Positions 1,053-21,275 of a stretch of 39,876 nt of DNA are shown here, in pieces. Source of the stretch: an uncultured Agathobaculum sp. (lineage in GTDB: Bacteria > Bacillota > Clostridia > Oscillospirales > Butyricicoccaceae); contig NZ_CALWUN010000018.1 in assembly GCF_944384735.1 (NCBI RefSeq), positions 1 through 39,876 of the forward strand, read 5' to 3'. How positions within the stretch are numbered: the stretch's first letter is position 1; each line of letters opens with the position of its first letter. The notes beneath the pieces were generated by a model. The model did no database searches and had not been told where the DNA came from. It saw nothing but the letters and a program-made list of their open reading frames with translations. The position numbers and the translations under genes are program-made.

Positions 1053-1090
1053 AAAAAAGGGCAGCATCGCGTATTCCTGCGACACTGCCC
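1053..1090 (-). terminator. Riboswitch-controlled intrinsic terminator in the pflB leader
   Basis: On the minus strand GGGCAG..GCGA-type arms (1090-1085 with 1064-1059, and 1082-1079 with 1070-1067) form a stem followed directly by six T. It begins inside the conserved 3' block of the aptamer, as expected for transcriptional attenuation. Confidence 0.88.
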
Positions 1091-1166
1091 AGACGGACGG
1101 CATAATAGATACACGCCCCTGTTCCCCGGTGGTTTTGCCCACCTTAGCCCGTCAGTCGCAGGGGGT
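1084..1166 (-). promoter_or_regulatory. ZTP (pfl-motif) riboswitch aptamer upstream of pflB
   Basis: Read on the minus strand, the leader shows the conserved blocks of the pfl/ZTP RNA in order: GACTGACGG, a hairpin GGTGG-gcaaaa-CCACC, CCGGGGAAC, and the hallmark 3' block CCGTCCGTCTGGGCA. CCCCTG (near 1160-1165) can pair with CAGGGG to enclose the first hairpin, and ACGG can pair with CCGT as the pseudoknot. The family senses the purine intermediate ZTP/AICAR-5'-phosphate, which builds up when 10-formyl-THF is short. The CTGGGC block overlaps the 5' strand of the following terminator stem, so ligand binding should prevent termination (an ON switch for formate production). Confidence 0.93.
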
Positions 1167-1188
1167 TGTTATTGCATTTTGTGGTTTA

Positions 1189-8963: not shown

Positions 8964-9039
8964 TGGAGCTTGCGGCCGGACTCGAACCGGCGACCTGCGC
9001 ATTACGAATGCGCTGCTCTACCAACTGAGCCACGCAAGC
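8964..9039 (-). tRNA. tRNA-Thr, anticodon CGU
   Basis: A complete 76-nt cloverleaf. The acceptor GCTTGCG pairs with CGCAAGC, the D arm is GCTC/GAGC, the anticodon arm GCGCA/TGCGC holds the loop TTCGTAA with anticodon CGT, and the T arm is GCCGG-TTCGAGT-CCGGC. The CCA end is encoded. It decodes ACG. A consensus promoter lies directly upstream. Confidence 0.98.
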
Positions 9040-17623: not shown

Positions 17624-17684
17624 GGGGCTGGCATAATCAAGCCCGCGGCAGCGGCGTCCGCATTACGGGCGCACCGCGCATTGC

Positions 17685-18842
17685 TCACTTATAGCTTTCC
17701 GCAAGGATGCCGATGATATCCTCACGCGACAGCGGATGCGGGTCGACGCGGAACAGCGCGCCCATCGTCTCGATCGCGTTGTCGGCGTACTTGCCGAAAT
17801 CGCCCTGCTGCACGCCGTAGCCCGACAGGCGTAGGTCGTGCACATTGCAGCGCTTTTGCAGCTCGGCCAGCGCCGCGATGAAGTCCTCGGGGCGGTTTGC
17901 GTCCTTTTTGCCGAGCGCGCGGGCAATGGCGACCAGCTTGTCGCCTGCGGACGCGAAAAAGCGGCTCCAATAGGCCTTGGAAATCATAATCAGCCCTGCG
18001 CCGTGCGGCAGCGACGGGTGGAACGCGCTCAGCGCGTGCTCGATAGCGTGCTCGCCCGTGCAGCTGGACAGCGTTTCGACAAAGCCGGCCAGCGTATTGG
18101 CCAGTGCGACATCGGCGCGCGCCTGCCTGTTGCCGCCGTCATGCACGGCGGTGGCGAGCGAGCGGCCGATCAGCTCGACCGCTTTGAGCGAGAACATCTC
18201 GCTGATCGGCGTGGCGCAGGTCGCCAGATAGCCCTCCGCCGCATGGAGGAAGGCGTCGAAGCCCTGATAGGCGGTCAGGTGGGGCGGAACGGTCATCATA
18301 AAGTCCGGGTCGACGACCGAGATCGTCGGGAAGCACTTTTCGCCGCCGCCGCCGATCTTTTCCTCGCCGTTGGTGATGACCGTGAACGGGTCGGCCTCAG
18401 TGCCCGTGCCCGCGGTGGTCGGGCTGGCGACGATGGGCAGGCCGTTGTTGGCGATGCGCTTGCCGCCGCCCGTGCCGCCGTGGACGTAATCCCACCAATC
18501 GCCGTCATTGGTCGCCATGATGGCGACCGCCTTGGCCGTGTCGATCGATGAGCCGCCGCCCAGGCCGACGACGAACGCGATGCCCTCCGCGCGGCACAGC
18601 GCGGCGCATTCGCGCACGCCCTCGATGGTCGGGTTGGGCTGCACTTTATTGTAAACGATGGTGTCGTGCCCGGCCTCGGCCAGCGCGTCCTGCACGCGGG
18701 CGACATAGCCCAAACGGGTGGTCGAGGTGCCGCCTGTGACGATCAGGCCGCGCCCCTCGGGCAGACGGGCGCGCGCCAGCTTCTGTACCGAGCCGGGGCC
18801 GAAGAACAGCCGGGTGGGTAGATAGAAGCCAAAGTTATCCAT
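17685..18842 (-). CDS. Iron-containing alcohol dehydrogenase
   Basis: A 385-residue group III NAD(P)H-dependent dehydrogenase that reduces aldehydes to alcohols, likely in fermentation. The nucleotide-binding block is VGLGGGSSIDTAKA; metal ligands are the Asp and His in YQGFDAFLHAAEGY and the two His in TGEHAIEHALSAFHPSLPHG. It resembles butanol/1,3-propanediol-type enzymes; the substrate is not determined. The ATG at 18842 follows AAAGGAGG. Directly upstream is a hairpin with a T-run and then repeat copy 2, so the leader of about 280 nt may attenuate expression. A strong terminator follows. Confidence 0.93.
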   Translation of the reverse strand: MDNFGFYLPTRLFFGPGSVQKLARARLPEGRGLIVTGGTSTTRLGYVARVQDALAEAGHDTIVYNKVQPNPTIEGVRECAALCRAEGIAFVVGLGGGSSIDTAKAVAIMATNDGDWWDYVHGGTGGGKRIANNGLPIVASPTTAGTGTEADPFTVITNGEEKIGGGGEKCFPTISVVDPDFMMTVPPHLTAYQGFDAFLHAAEGYLATCATPISEMFSLKAVELIGRSLATAVHDGGNRQARADVALANTLAGFVETLSSCTGEHAIEHALSAFHPSLPHGAGLIMISKAYWSRFFASAGDKLVAIARALGKKDANRPEDFIAALAELQKRCNVHDLRLSGYGVQQGDFGKYADNAIETMGALFRVDPHPLSREDIIGILAESYK

Positions 18843-18862
18843 TTTGTGTCCTCCTTTGAAAA

Positions 18863-19074
18863 AAGGGGGCCGAACCAACCCCCTTCGGCCTGTCGATAAA
18901 GTCCTCGCGCCGCAGCGCGCATTGTTCAGCCGCTCTGTGAGCGGCATCAAAAAAACGAGCTTTGCCCGTTTTTTTGATACATTTGATTCGATCGGAAGCG
19001 TGGTTCCGATCGAGAGACTGTCGAAAACTATGTTTTTCGACAGTCGCAAGGGGGTCGGTTCGACCCCCTTGCGA
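18863..19074 (+). repeat. Structured repeat, copy 2, with flanking related hairpins
   Basis: The core (18890-19043, 154 bp) begins CTGTCGATAAAG and ends TTTTTCGACAG and matches copy 1 at nearly every base. Where it differs in stems the change is compensated: the AT-rich stem has ACG/CGT instead of GCG/CGC, and the last stem GA/TC instead of GG/CC. The left flank (18863-18885) and right flank (19044-19074) are related hairpins with an AAGGGGG/CCCCCTT stem and GTT/AAC loops, here in inverted orientation. The left hairpin read on the minus strand ends in TTTTTT just before the ribosome site of the alcohol dehydrogenase. Confidence 0.9.
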
Positions 19075-19126
19075 CAGCGTTTTCCTGCTTCCTTCCGTGG
19101 GGGCGTACAACGCACCCAACAATATC

Positions 19127-19155
19127 ATTGTATCAAATTATGAGCAGCTTGAAAA
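19127..19155 (-). promoter_or_regulatory. Possible promoter of the alcohol dehydrogenase
   Basis: On the minus strand TTTTCA (19155-19150), 17-bp spacer and TACAAT (19132-19127). If used, repeat copy 2 lies inside the 5' leader. Confidence 0.5.
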
Positions 19156-19224
19156 GATGGGAAAACGCCGAAAGGCGCTCGCTTCTTTCGTGCAATTTAC
19201 CCATCAAAAATCGAAAAATAACAC

Positions 19225-19253
19225 TTGACCTTGTGCATTATTGATGATATTAT
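19225..19253 (+). promoter_or_regulatory. Promoter of the candidate large non-coding RNA
   Basis: TTGACC (19225-19230), 17-bp spacer, TATTAT (19248-19253), facing a 1.3-kb stretch without a credible gene. Confidence 0.75.
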
Positions 19254-19257
19254 AGGT

Positions 19258-20545
19258 TCACAGAAAAGATAAGGGCAAACACCAAAGAAAGCAAGGCGGT
19301 GGCCTTGCAAACGGCGAAACCTATTCTGATCTGTCAGGAGATGGCGTATAGCCAAATCAAACCGCTGAAAGGGGTGAGTCCAATGGTAATAGAAGAAGCA
19401 TCCTACCTGTTCGCGGGACTCGCCGCGACGCTGTGACCGAAACGATCAAGGTGATAGCTATAAAAAAGAGCGAGTTCCACATCCAAATAACGAACCGCCT
19501 GAAAAGCGCGATCGGCTTCTAAGAGAAGTAAGGAACGGCACCTTTGAGGAAGCTATCCTCGCGAATAACCATCCGTAAATCATACTGACGATGCAAGCGG
19601 ATCGAGGCAGCAGGAAAGCAAGGTTCGTCGCATGAAAGAACCATGAACCGATGCGTCGGCGAATGAAACAGCATCCGTAACGATACCTGCCGATAAGGCC
19701 AAAAATAGTGCGCATCCAAAGGCCGATGGGCATACTGATGAGTATGATGCCGCAAAAGCGGACCAGAGCACAAGAGAGAGATCATATCAAAACTTGCTGA
19801 AAGTGGTCCGGGCCGTGCAGGATAGAATCGAACGATCACCCGCCGAGCAAGAGACGCATCAAAAATTCATATAGAGTTCCCGAATGTAAGAAAGGTAACC
19901 ATCGAAATATGGAAAGTACCAGAAGAACCGCAGTCGGGCGACTCCCGTGAACGTAGGATCAGGAAAAACGCAAAACCCACCAGCAAAGCGCCGGTTTCGA
20001 TACCGGCAGCAACATCCGGATGGTTTGGTTTCCCCGGAATGCGAAAAATCAAAGGAAAGGTGGAATTTCAGATTTTGCAAAACGAAGAAAGCAATCCTTG
20101 CCGGGATTTTTTCCTCCAAACTCCCCGATTCTTCCAAGGAAAGCCCATTCGTACCTGTGAAGAATGAAGTTTTACAAAACCGATGGTTGCAGCAGATGGG
20201 ATCGGCTGATCAAAGCAGGTTTGGCAAGCCCATCACTTTGGAATCCAATAACCTTGGGCAGCAGGGAATCACTTTGAGGCCGAAAACATTTGGATCGATA
20301 AGGGAAAACCGGAAAACATAATCGGATAGCTTCGCAACACTGCATGGTTGGAGCAGCGCGGAATCCCAAAATAGCAAGCGGTACAAATGGCAAAAGCCAT
20401 GACGTAACCAATGCGATATGGAGTTTGGGAACGCATCTGAATCAAACAGGCAGAATACCAAATACGGCAGTATAAACTGTCGGGAAAAGAGCTTATATGG
20501 AATTTTGGAAGTAAAAGGCCTCGTCGGGTGACGGGGCCTTTGTTG
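19258..20545 (+). ncRNA. Candidate very large structured non-coding RNA (~1.3 kb)
   Basis: No reading frame on either strand looks like a protein, and none has a proper start, ribosome site and length. The plus strand is strongly A-rich and T-poor (hand counts per 60 nt: 26 A/4 T at 19261, 22/5 at 19921, 25/10 at 20281), as in large RNAs with adenosine-rich loops. Perfect hairpins are frequent: GCAAGGC/GCCTTGC (19291-19308), CTTCT/AGAAG (19516-19528), CATACT/AGTATG (19731-19746), GCCGGT/ACCGGC (19990-20007), ATGGC-aaaa-GCCAT (20387-20400), and the longer-range GGACCA/TGGTCC (19760/19809) and GAGTCC/GGACTC (19376/19421). A promoter precedes and a terminator ends the region. It is not tmRNA, RNase P or 6S RNA. 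Relationship to GOLLD, ROOL or OLE cannot be judged by eye. Confidence 0.6.
20515..20545. terminator. Bidirectional terminator between the large RNA candidate and tepA
   Basis: AAGGCCTCGTC (20515-20525), loop GGGT, GACGGGGCCTT (20530-20540): 11 pairs with one G-T. T-rich sequence follows on the plus strand and TTTTAC on the minus strand. Confidence 0.85.
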
Positions 20546-20576
20546 TTGCCTGGGCTGCCCGGGCAGCCCGGCCTGC

Positions 20577-21275
20577 TTACGGCTGCCCGCCCCTGCCCTG
20601 CCGTCGGTCGGCAATCATGCCGTATAGCGCGTCGAGCGCGTCGGACAGCGTGCCGACCGCGCCGATCAGGCCAATGTCGACCGCCTGCCGCCCCGAGATC
20701 ACCGTGCCGACATCAGCGGTCAGCTGGCCGGTTTCGCGCATCAGCTGTTGCAGCCGCCCCGCCGTGATGTGTGAATGGCCGGTGATAAAATCCACAATGC
20801 GCTCCTGGATGCGCGCGAGGTACTCAAAAGCCTGCGGCACGGCAATAATCGTGCCGTTCATGCGCACCGGATGGATGGTCATGGCGGCAGAGGCGGCGAT
20901 AAAGCTCTTTTTCGCCGCCACGGCCAGCGGCACGCCAATCGAATGCCCGCCGCCCAGCACGAGCGACACGGTCGGCTTGGTCATGCCCGCAATCAGTTCG
21001 GCGATGGCAAGGCCGGCTTCCACATCGCCGCCCACTGTGTTGAGCAGCACCAGCATGCCGTCGATCTCCTCGGCCTGTTCGACGGCGGCGATCTGCGGGA
21101 TCAGGTGCTCGTATTTGGTGGTTTTGTTCTGCTCCGGCAGTTCCATATGCCCTTCGATCTGGCCGACAATCGTGATGCAGTGCACGGTGCCGCGCGTGCT
21201 TTTGGCCGTGACCGAGCCGGTTTCTGCGATGCTGCTTTCCTCCGGCGCGGGGATCATTGGCATTTCCTCGGACAT
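20577..21275 (-). CDS. tepA: TepA/YmfB-like ClpP-class serine protease
   Basis: A 232-residue cytosolic protein of the ClpP/crotonase fold. TepA of Bacillus is linked to protein export and to degrading spore proteins at germination. The nucleophile is Ser112 in GGGHSIG and the His is 135 in TIHPVRMNG; NTVGGDVEAGLAIAE matches the substrate-holding strand. No signal peptide is seen. GGGAGGGA lies before the ATG. It stands alone, convergent to the large RNA candidate, and shares a bidirectional terminator with it. Confidence 0.9.
   Translation of the reverse strand: MSEEMPMIPAPEESSIAETGSVTAKSTRGTVHCITIVGQIEGHMELPEQNKTTKYEHLIPQIAAVEQAEEIDGMLVLLNTVGGDVEAGLAIAELIAGMTKPTVSLVLGGGHSIGVPLAVAAKKSFIAASAAMTIHPVRMNGTIIAVPQAFEYLARIQERIVDFITGHSHITAGRLQQLMRETGQLTADVGTVISGRQAVDIGLIGAVGTLSDALDALYGMIADRRQGRGGQP

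Follow-up and report, generated by a model that had tools for sequence, protein, structure and literature searches.

A contig of an uncultured Agathobaculum sp. (NZ_CALWUN010000018.1), of which 39,876 nt were analyzed (the window), raises the question of what is produced by a plus-strand unit (19225-20545) that has a promoter at its start, a terminator at its end and no protein gene. A first-pass annotation had proposed a giant non-coding RNA. Our comparison with related genomes upheld a large, conserved, structured RNA lying outside Rfam; the term 'non-coding', however, proved too strong, since the best-conserved block of the family (19367-19386) is a Shine-Dalgarno (SD) sequence with a start codon, followed by a short open reading frame (ORF).

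The explanation that we favor, plausible though somewhat short of probable, is that the unit specifies a new class of structured RNA which would dock initiating ribosomes and refold with them. At the sequence level, the comparison shows (i) a conserved multi-helix fold, with a strong SD/start/mini-ORF module in the delimited members, and (ii) alternative pairing partners of the ORF 3′ half, two in number and excluding each other, the more distant of which is found in most, not all, lineages.

The start module and its short ORF

A nucleotide search revealed a match to the family in 24 of the 25 genomes of the genus (the source genome included), and the remaining one (G004) gave a weak covariance-model match (E 6.1e-4). 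The set of copies delimited from promoter to terminator comprises 23 sequences from 22 genomes (G011 carries one on each of two contigs); outside it are G004, G007, whose copy is split across contigs, and G008, in which a contig end cuts the copy. Genera are designated g1 (that of the window), g2 and so on, families by the letter f, and individual loci by the letter L.

Among 14 genomes, the 3′ end of the 16S rRNA was found in four, one of which belongs to the window's genus, and reads GGATCACCTCCTTTCT in each. Its complement, AGAAAGGAGGTGATCC, fits the SD block over nearly the full length, with one extra G and one or more missing or changed bases that depend on the lineage (one missing base in g1). 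The block is the top-scoring plus-strand SD site of the 40-kb window.

An ORF of 16-20 codons is present in 15 of the 16 lineage representatives, L135 being the exception (approx. 11% expected for each by shuffling); the representatives were chosen by a pattern containing ATGG, and the AUG itself was thus partly selected for. The departures from AUG that we observed, UUG in L114 and GUG in L130, are both start codons. Between genera the start and length of the ORF are kept while the peptide is not conserved, and by eye the reading frame of the helix strand within the ORF differs from genus to genus. Among the genus copies, changes in the ORF fall evenly on the three codon positions (21/17/23), which argues that the amino acids are not selected. 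One mark of dual-function RNAs, a short ORF with conserved start, stop and ribosome-binding site, is therefore seen, and another, a peptide under selection, is not seen within the genus.

Peptides are alike within genera, mostly MVxEExSYxFAGLAAxL in g1 and MGxEESCFQ in g4; several g3 copies have WNSRTRSRL in common, and there is a faint common start, M-[VGA]-x-E. Such likeness would suit a dual-function RNA that chiefly yields the short peptide, e.g. as a signal or to regulate a partner protein. We consider this distinctly improbable, as the peptides differ between genera, selection at the amino acid level is not measurable in g1, and the mini-ORFs of several g3 modules have just two or three codons (MGR, MGK, MG).

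Genus g3 also differs in the number of modules: the RNAs L110/L087 contain six with AUG. Sites complementary to the 16S tail number six at threshold in each of L087 and L114 (shuffle means 0.5 and 0.35), not all of them being followed by a start codon, and one L114 site belongs to the next gene. The other g3 RNAs have three (L113 and L117), two (L118) or one (L116); the three in L113 do not exceed its highest shuffle, and the scanned stretch of L115, with zero sites, excluded its module.

A purely structural non-coding RNA (a ribozyme, a scaffold or a cage-like RNA), in which the SD-like block and the ORF resemble a translation start by coincidence, would account for the unconserved peptide and the absence of codon-position bias in the genus, and also for the location of most of the ORF 3′ half within a covarying helix; large ornate RNAs are a known phenomenon (parts of PMC12286853). 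It is nevertheless rather unlikely in view of the narrow range of ORF lengths, the use of UUG and GUG in the observed departures from AUG, the match of the block to nearly the full 16S tail, and the tandem g3 modules with their start codons.

Two exclusive partners of the ORF

The first partner of the ORF 3′ half is the SD block itself. The resulting hairpin is paired in 97.2% of the alignment cells of 22 sequences, which come from six genera within the family and one beyond it; in five of these sequences (four from g4, plus L020 of g1) an A-U pair takes the place of G-C, and both the cells with double-sided change and the score exceed shuffles (0/500). The alternative partner is a strand located approx. 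500 nt downstream, with which the ORF 3′ half forms 26 pairs (Table 1).

The duplex between the ORF and the downstream strand was matched by no more than one of 50 shuffles in all representatives of g1 (7/7), g4 (4/4), f14 (1/1) and f26 (2/2), and in one of the two of g7. The distance of +18 between the A of the AUG and this helix was taken from the g1 consensus fold only, because in most of the unconstrained duplexes the helix extended as far as the start codon.

A small ORF locked away by long-range pairing is reminiscent of mRNAs of the hok type and the like (in part after PMC11228461, in part general background), and the RNA could accordingly be a type I toxin-antitoxin-like mRNA, silenced by 5′-3′ pairing until it is processed. 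This is extremely improbable: the peptides are short and, by eye, have no membrane segment, the g1 genomes searched contain one match to the module model each (except for an additional gene start in G001), and the sites look chromosomal and syntenic.

Consensus fold and covariation

Folded as a single sequence, the unit reaches −399.1 kcal/mol. The consensus fold of the 23 copies is composed of 198 pairs in 34 helices, with standard pairs in 94.0% of the cells; when the partner strand is slid by 1-3 columns, pairing drops to 33-41%. There are 67 pairs that change on both sides (21.9 ± 3.4 in shuffles; 0/500 reach this number), and 20 of the 34 helices contain at least one such pair, which indicates that the hairpins originally picked out by eye are real.

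Since the consensus fold was derived from the same alignment, column-shuffled versions were refolded as a separate test. The 706-column 5′ domain was shuffled 100 times by columns, within conservation and gap classes, and each version was refolded. The energy of the native domain (−311.8 kcal/mol) was reached by none of the 100 shuffles (−205.1 ± 8.8 kcal/mol; z −12.1), and neither was the number of covarying pairs (56 vs. 18.4 ± 3.8).

In the second most conserved block (19721-19746), stem bases change in concert, by eye, in L026, L030 and the g4 copies. A second conserved ORF had been considered at this position and was dropped, because the base changes follow the hairpin stem.

Neither a protein gene nor a catalogued RNA

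The unit contains eight ORFs of at least 60 amino acids, and the six that were tested gave no Pfam match. To this extent the first-pass statement that no frame looks like protein is correct; what it overlooked is the 17-codon ORF with its very strong ribosome-binding site (19367-19436). The alignment of the genus copies is not that of a protein, because only 18 of the 113 gap runs (counted per sequence) are divisible by three.

A scan of the window at the gathering thresholds of Rfam 15 revealed nothing in the unit. Elsewhere in the window it detected a ZMP/ZTP riboswitch (1080-1169, minus strand; 57.9 bits vs. gathering 39) and a tRNA-Thr (CGT; 8964-9039, minus strand). A relaxed scan of 18850-20650 gave chance-level matches only (FinP, E 0.16, located 5′ of the unit, and RT-3, E 1.3), and the g2/g7 relatives have no Rfam match either. 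The known large RNAs considered were OLE, GOLLD, ROOL, raiA, group II introns and HEARO.

RNase P, transfer-messenger RNA (tmRNA) and 6S RNA in disguise were ruled out: RNase P is located elsewhere in 23 of the 25 genus genomes, tmRNA elsewhere, above the cut-off in nine of 13 genomes, and 6S RNA elsewhere in 12 of 13. The source genome carries all three, each on contigs other than this one. A phage or plasmid element was also rejected, as no match was found in phage and plasmid collections; the pattern used for the viral contig scan fits only part of the RNA family. A literature search found no paper describing this RNA among the portions of text it covered (supplementary motif lists, possibly with an unnamed entry, were outside its scope), and a term search of PMC8040213 gave nothing on it.

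Distribution of the RNA

A full-length match was obtained only in G006, at 83%. Most other genus copies have the first 640-750 nt (approx.) and the terminator in common, with a different and mostly shorter middle. The RNAs of g2 (approx. 390 nt; promoter and terminator visible by eye) and g4 (about 500-600 nt) both contain the SD/start/short-ORF module, and the g4 copies were retrieved through the 19721-19746 block, independently of the start module. The epithet 'giant' thus fits the window's genus (766-1302 nt) but not the g2 relatives.

A covariance model of the module was built on 22 of the 29 delimited sequences, the others being near-duplicates or the longer L021. It matches 43 of 394 genomes of the order, in 15 of 168 genera (weak matches included). 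In the window's own family the module is present in six of 15 genera, and the other nine gave no match among the genomes searched. The copies belong to seven genera in two families and, with less certainty, to two further families (f23 and f26).

Nine weaker matches in the order were inspected (six further weak ones lie outside these nine) and proved to be two gene starts, one GUG variant (f14) and six apparent relatives (f23, f26); the two gene starts, L124 and L129, were rejected as relatives. A pattern scan of contigs gave 18 matches, composed of six clear relatives, six leaders of protein genes described below and six that were not counted as relatives; its pattern had one purine more than the commonest form of the motif and hence missed that form. 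Outside the order nothing convincing was found: the phylum scan matched five of 299 genomes, which are the source genome and four others with weak matches, one of them within the order. Of its matches L119, L120, L121 and L122, two (L120 and L122) read by eye as ordinary coding sequence.

The six f23/f26 copies (L133-L138) have low scores (25-31 bits) and are, less surely, homologous to the window RNA. All have a promoter-like site upstream, and five have a terminator-like site downstream, in two cases more than 1.2 kb away. A gene for a small acidic protein, which we take to be DUF1292, lies near the element in all six, and 6S RNA is located between the two in every case (over the Rfam cut-off in four, below it in L136 and L138).

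Similar modules were also observed in other contexts. On two Clostridia contigs (L066 and L078) a similar start module is found in the 5′ leader of an Hsp20 gene (by eye), and the upstream ORF (uORF) there holds a second, similar GAGTCCAATGGGC stretch. In L067, L076, L077 and L080, a uORF starting MGST[ED], with a similar start module, precedes a gene probably encoding a secreted protein (by eye). In f14, the element L048/L132 includes another small ORF (MKLMVAKRMNPMKDEDGPTIR), which has a strong SD sequence (by eye). A further copy of the module, starting with GUG, occurs in that genome (L130).

Locus and extent of the predicted transcription unit

Both ends of the unit proposed in the first-pass annotation were recovered (Table 1). 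In a 1.9-kb stretch there are four promoter-like sites, vs. 1.4 ± 1.5 in shuffles. The terminator, initially described as 11 bp, is a hairpin of 12 pairs (AAAGGCCTCGTC / GACGGGGCCTTT, 20514-20541), and its pairing in the 23 aligned copies is to be read with the fact that the pattern used to cut them itself includes this hairpin. A simple terminator scan did not list it, probably because the U-run sits within the stem; such a scan also found none for L134, the g5 copy L144, L139 and L150.

The plus strand had been described as A-rich and T-poor throughout. This applies to ten of the 12 200-nt windows starting at 19200-20300, in which the AT skew is at least +0.26 (maximum +0.43), and less so to two around 20000-20300 (+0.07 to +0.13); neighboring windows range from −0.38 to +0.21.

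Classic attenuators combine leader peptides with alternative hairpins, and in some genomes of g2 and g4 the gene that follows the RNA is on its strand (by eye), an arrangement that a cis-acting leader or attenuator of a neighboring gene would have. For the window RNA such a role is very improbable, given that the next gene is convergent, that the 23 aligned genus copies (cut by this feature) end in an intrinsic terminator, and that the downstream genes differ between genera.

Two near-perfect inverted repeats (18946-18978 and 19043-19075) lie 5′ of the promoter. A direct repeat of 18 nt is found at 17670 and again at 18911. These are perhaps terminators or a repeat family (the 'repeat copy 2' of the first pass).

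Table 1. Features of the RNA and of its flanks, with their positions in the window.
Feature	Position	Strand	Remarks
Iron-dependent alcohol dehydrogenase gene	17685..18842	-	Flanking, outside the RNA; synteny marker; PF00465, 7.1e-47
Sigma-A-type promoter TTGACC-17-TATTAT	19225..19253	+	10/12 consensus positions; similar site 5′ of relatives
Inferred RNA, approx. 1.29 kb	19260..20545	+	Promoter-to-terminator extent, start site inferred; 23 genus copies, 766-1302 nt
Near-invariant 5′ strand GGGCAAACACC, can pair with SD block	19273..19283	+	Helices 2 and 3: 97.8 and 98.9% paired
Short hairpin GCAAGGC-GGTG-GCCTTGC	19291..19308	+	Helix 4: 5/7 pairs change on both sides
Extended SD block GAAAGGGGTGAGTCC	19367..19381	+	Complement of nearly whole 16S 3′ tail; one extra, one missing base
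17-codon ORF MVIEEASYLFAGLAATL, stop TGA	19383..19436	+	Same length in 22/23 aligned genus copies; 20 codons in L021
5′ strand of 26-bp long-range helix, inside ORF	19400..19429	+	From +18 of the A of AUG; helix 8: 98.7% paired, 9 double-changed pairs
Conserved hairpin TGAGGA-AGCTA-TCCTCG	19545..19561	+	Helix 17: 97.1% paired, mostly invariant
Second most conserved block GGCCGATGGGCATACTGATGAGTATG	19721..19746	+	19722-19745 invariant in 23 genus copies; found in other genera too
3′ strand of long-range helix	19933..19959	+	Helix 8; duplex test
Variable 3′ domain	19960..20464	+	Approx. 500 nt in window and L002; shorter in remaining aligned copies
Hairpin preceding terminator	20465..20482	+	Helix 33: 5/7 pairs change on both sides
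Intrinsic terminator	20514..20548	+	Helix 34 of consensus fold: 99.6% paired, double-sided change at 4/12 pairs
Clp-protease-like gene ('tepA')	20577..21275	-	Flanking, convergent; PF00574, 5.4e-21

Observations weighing against ribosome docking

Several results, in addition to the even spread of changes over codon positions, speak against the docking of ribosomes. Strong SD sites are not unique to the RNA, because the window contains other high-scoring ones: three further plus-strand sites score 9.5-10, and the minus-strand site 726 ties with the block. Some members have a longer ORF (25 codons in L135 and in L117 of g3). In the SD hairpin, double-sided change occurs at only one of the eight pairs, and its pair count was reached by 420 of 500 shuffles; in the pairing of the near-invariant 5′ strand with the SD block, six of the eight pairs never vary and hence show no covariation. 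The ORF:downstream duplex is not significant in g5 (1/1), g3 (1/1) and three of the four f23 representatives, is borderline in the fourth (3/50 shuffles), and is weak in g2 (four loci, 3-7/50) and L026 (5/50).

As regards the fold, the energy of the reverse complement (−300.3 kcal/mol) comes close to that of the native 5′ domain (−311.8 kcal/mol). A covariation test of all column pairs, with a tree-based null of redistributed substitutions, gave 0 pairs at E <= 0.05, and the same test limited to the proposed structure found only two of 198 pairs significant, its power being low because the 23 sequences are closely related. The covariation check suggested at first pass is thus positive in one respect (paired changes exceed column and letter shuffles) and negative in another (the stricter test of all pairs).

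In the source genome (L061, contig C25) and in G001 (L124), an HD-domain-like gene (by eye) starts with nearly the same module.

A possible mechanism

The model of ribosome docking starts from a presumed stand-alone transcript. During transcription the local SD hairpin would form first and hide the ribosome-binding site; the far strand, emerging approx. 500 nt later, would capture the ORF and free this site. A ribosome could now bind and initiate; in the window's genus, however, it would face the 26-bp helix beginning at +18, which corresponds approximately to the front edge of an initiating ribosome, as judged from footprint size. The RNA would in this way dock the initiating ribosome, and the fold would be reset when the short ORF is traversed. 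Conservation would then concern ribosome binding or translation as such, not the peptide, and the output might be the storage of ribosomes, the sensing of how much translation capacity there is, or the unmasking of a region that acts in trans. The other explanations (structural RNA, peptide messenger, cis leader, toxin-type mRNA) are less supported.

A wider form of this model is unlikely when taken as a whole. It would have an order-wide RNA class park ribosomes, the far strand opening the start site and the captured ORF serving as a barrier ahead of the initiating ribosome, with the docking module amplified in one genus to as many as six per RNA. Were ribosome parking to be true, the RNA would be equivalent to the hibernation factors made of protein, or would sense translation capacity. 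The clue built into the family is that a start site and a mini-ORF with two competing partners are kept while much else changes.

Comparison with known systems

To our knowledge, very few bacterial RNAs of such size and structural complexity have been described, and most are still without a mechanism. OLE, GOLLD and ROOL resemble the window RNA as stand-alone bacterial RNAs of hundreds of nucleotides with ornate conserved folds (parts of PMC12286853 and of the OLE papers). In contrast to them, the window RNA has an embedded SD/ORF module and no Rfam match beyond chance at relaxed thresholds, and its family ranges from approx. 390 nt (g2) to 1302 nt, with no match in phage and plasmid collections. 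The raiA motif/ModT RNA is likewise a structured RNA of clostridia (parts of PMC11706538), from which the window RNA and its g2/g7 relatives are set apart by the lack of an Rfam match. A short ORF and a ribosome site inside a structured RNA are also seen in uORF leader motifs and attenuators (parts of PMC8632094); unlike these, the window RNA has its own terminator, a convergent neighbor and no regulated gene downstream.

Type I toxin mRNAs of the hok type conceal a small ORF by long-range pairing, whereas the window RNA has, by eye, no hydrophobic toxin-like peptide. Staphylococcus aureus RNAIII and VcdRP are regulatory RNAs which also contain a short ORF. Dual-function RNAs such as these encode functional small proteins, while the window RNA keeps the length and start of its ORF and not the peptide. 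It is counted here as a new class, because it matched none of the named RNA classes against which it was tested. As a phenomenon, it stands nearest to the large ornate RNAs and to the dual-function RNAs.
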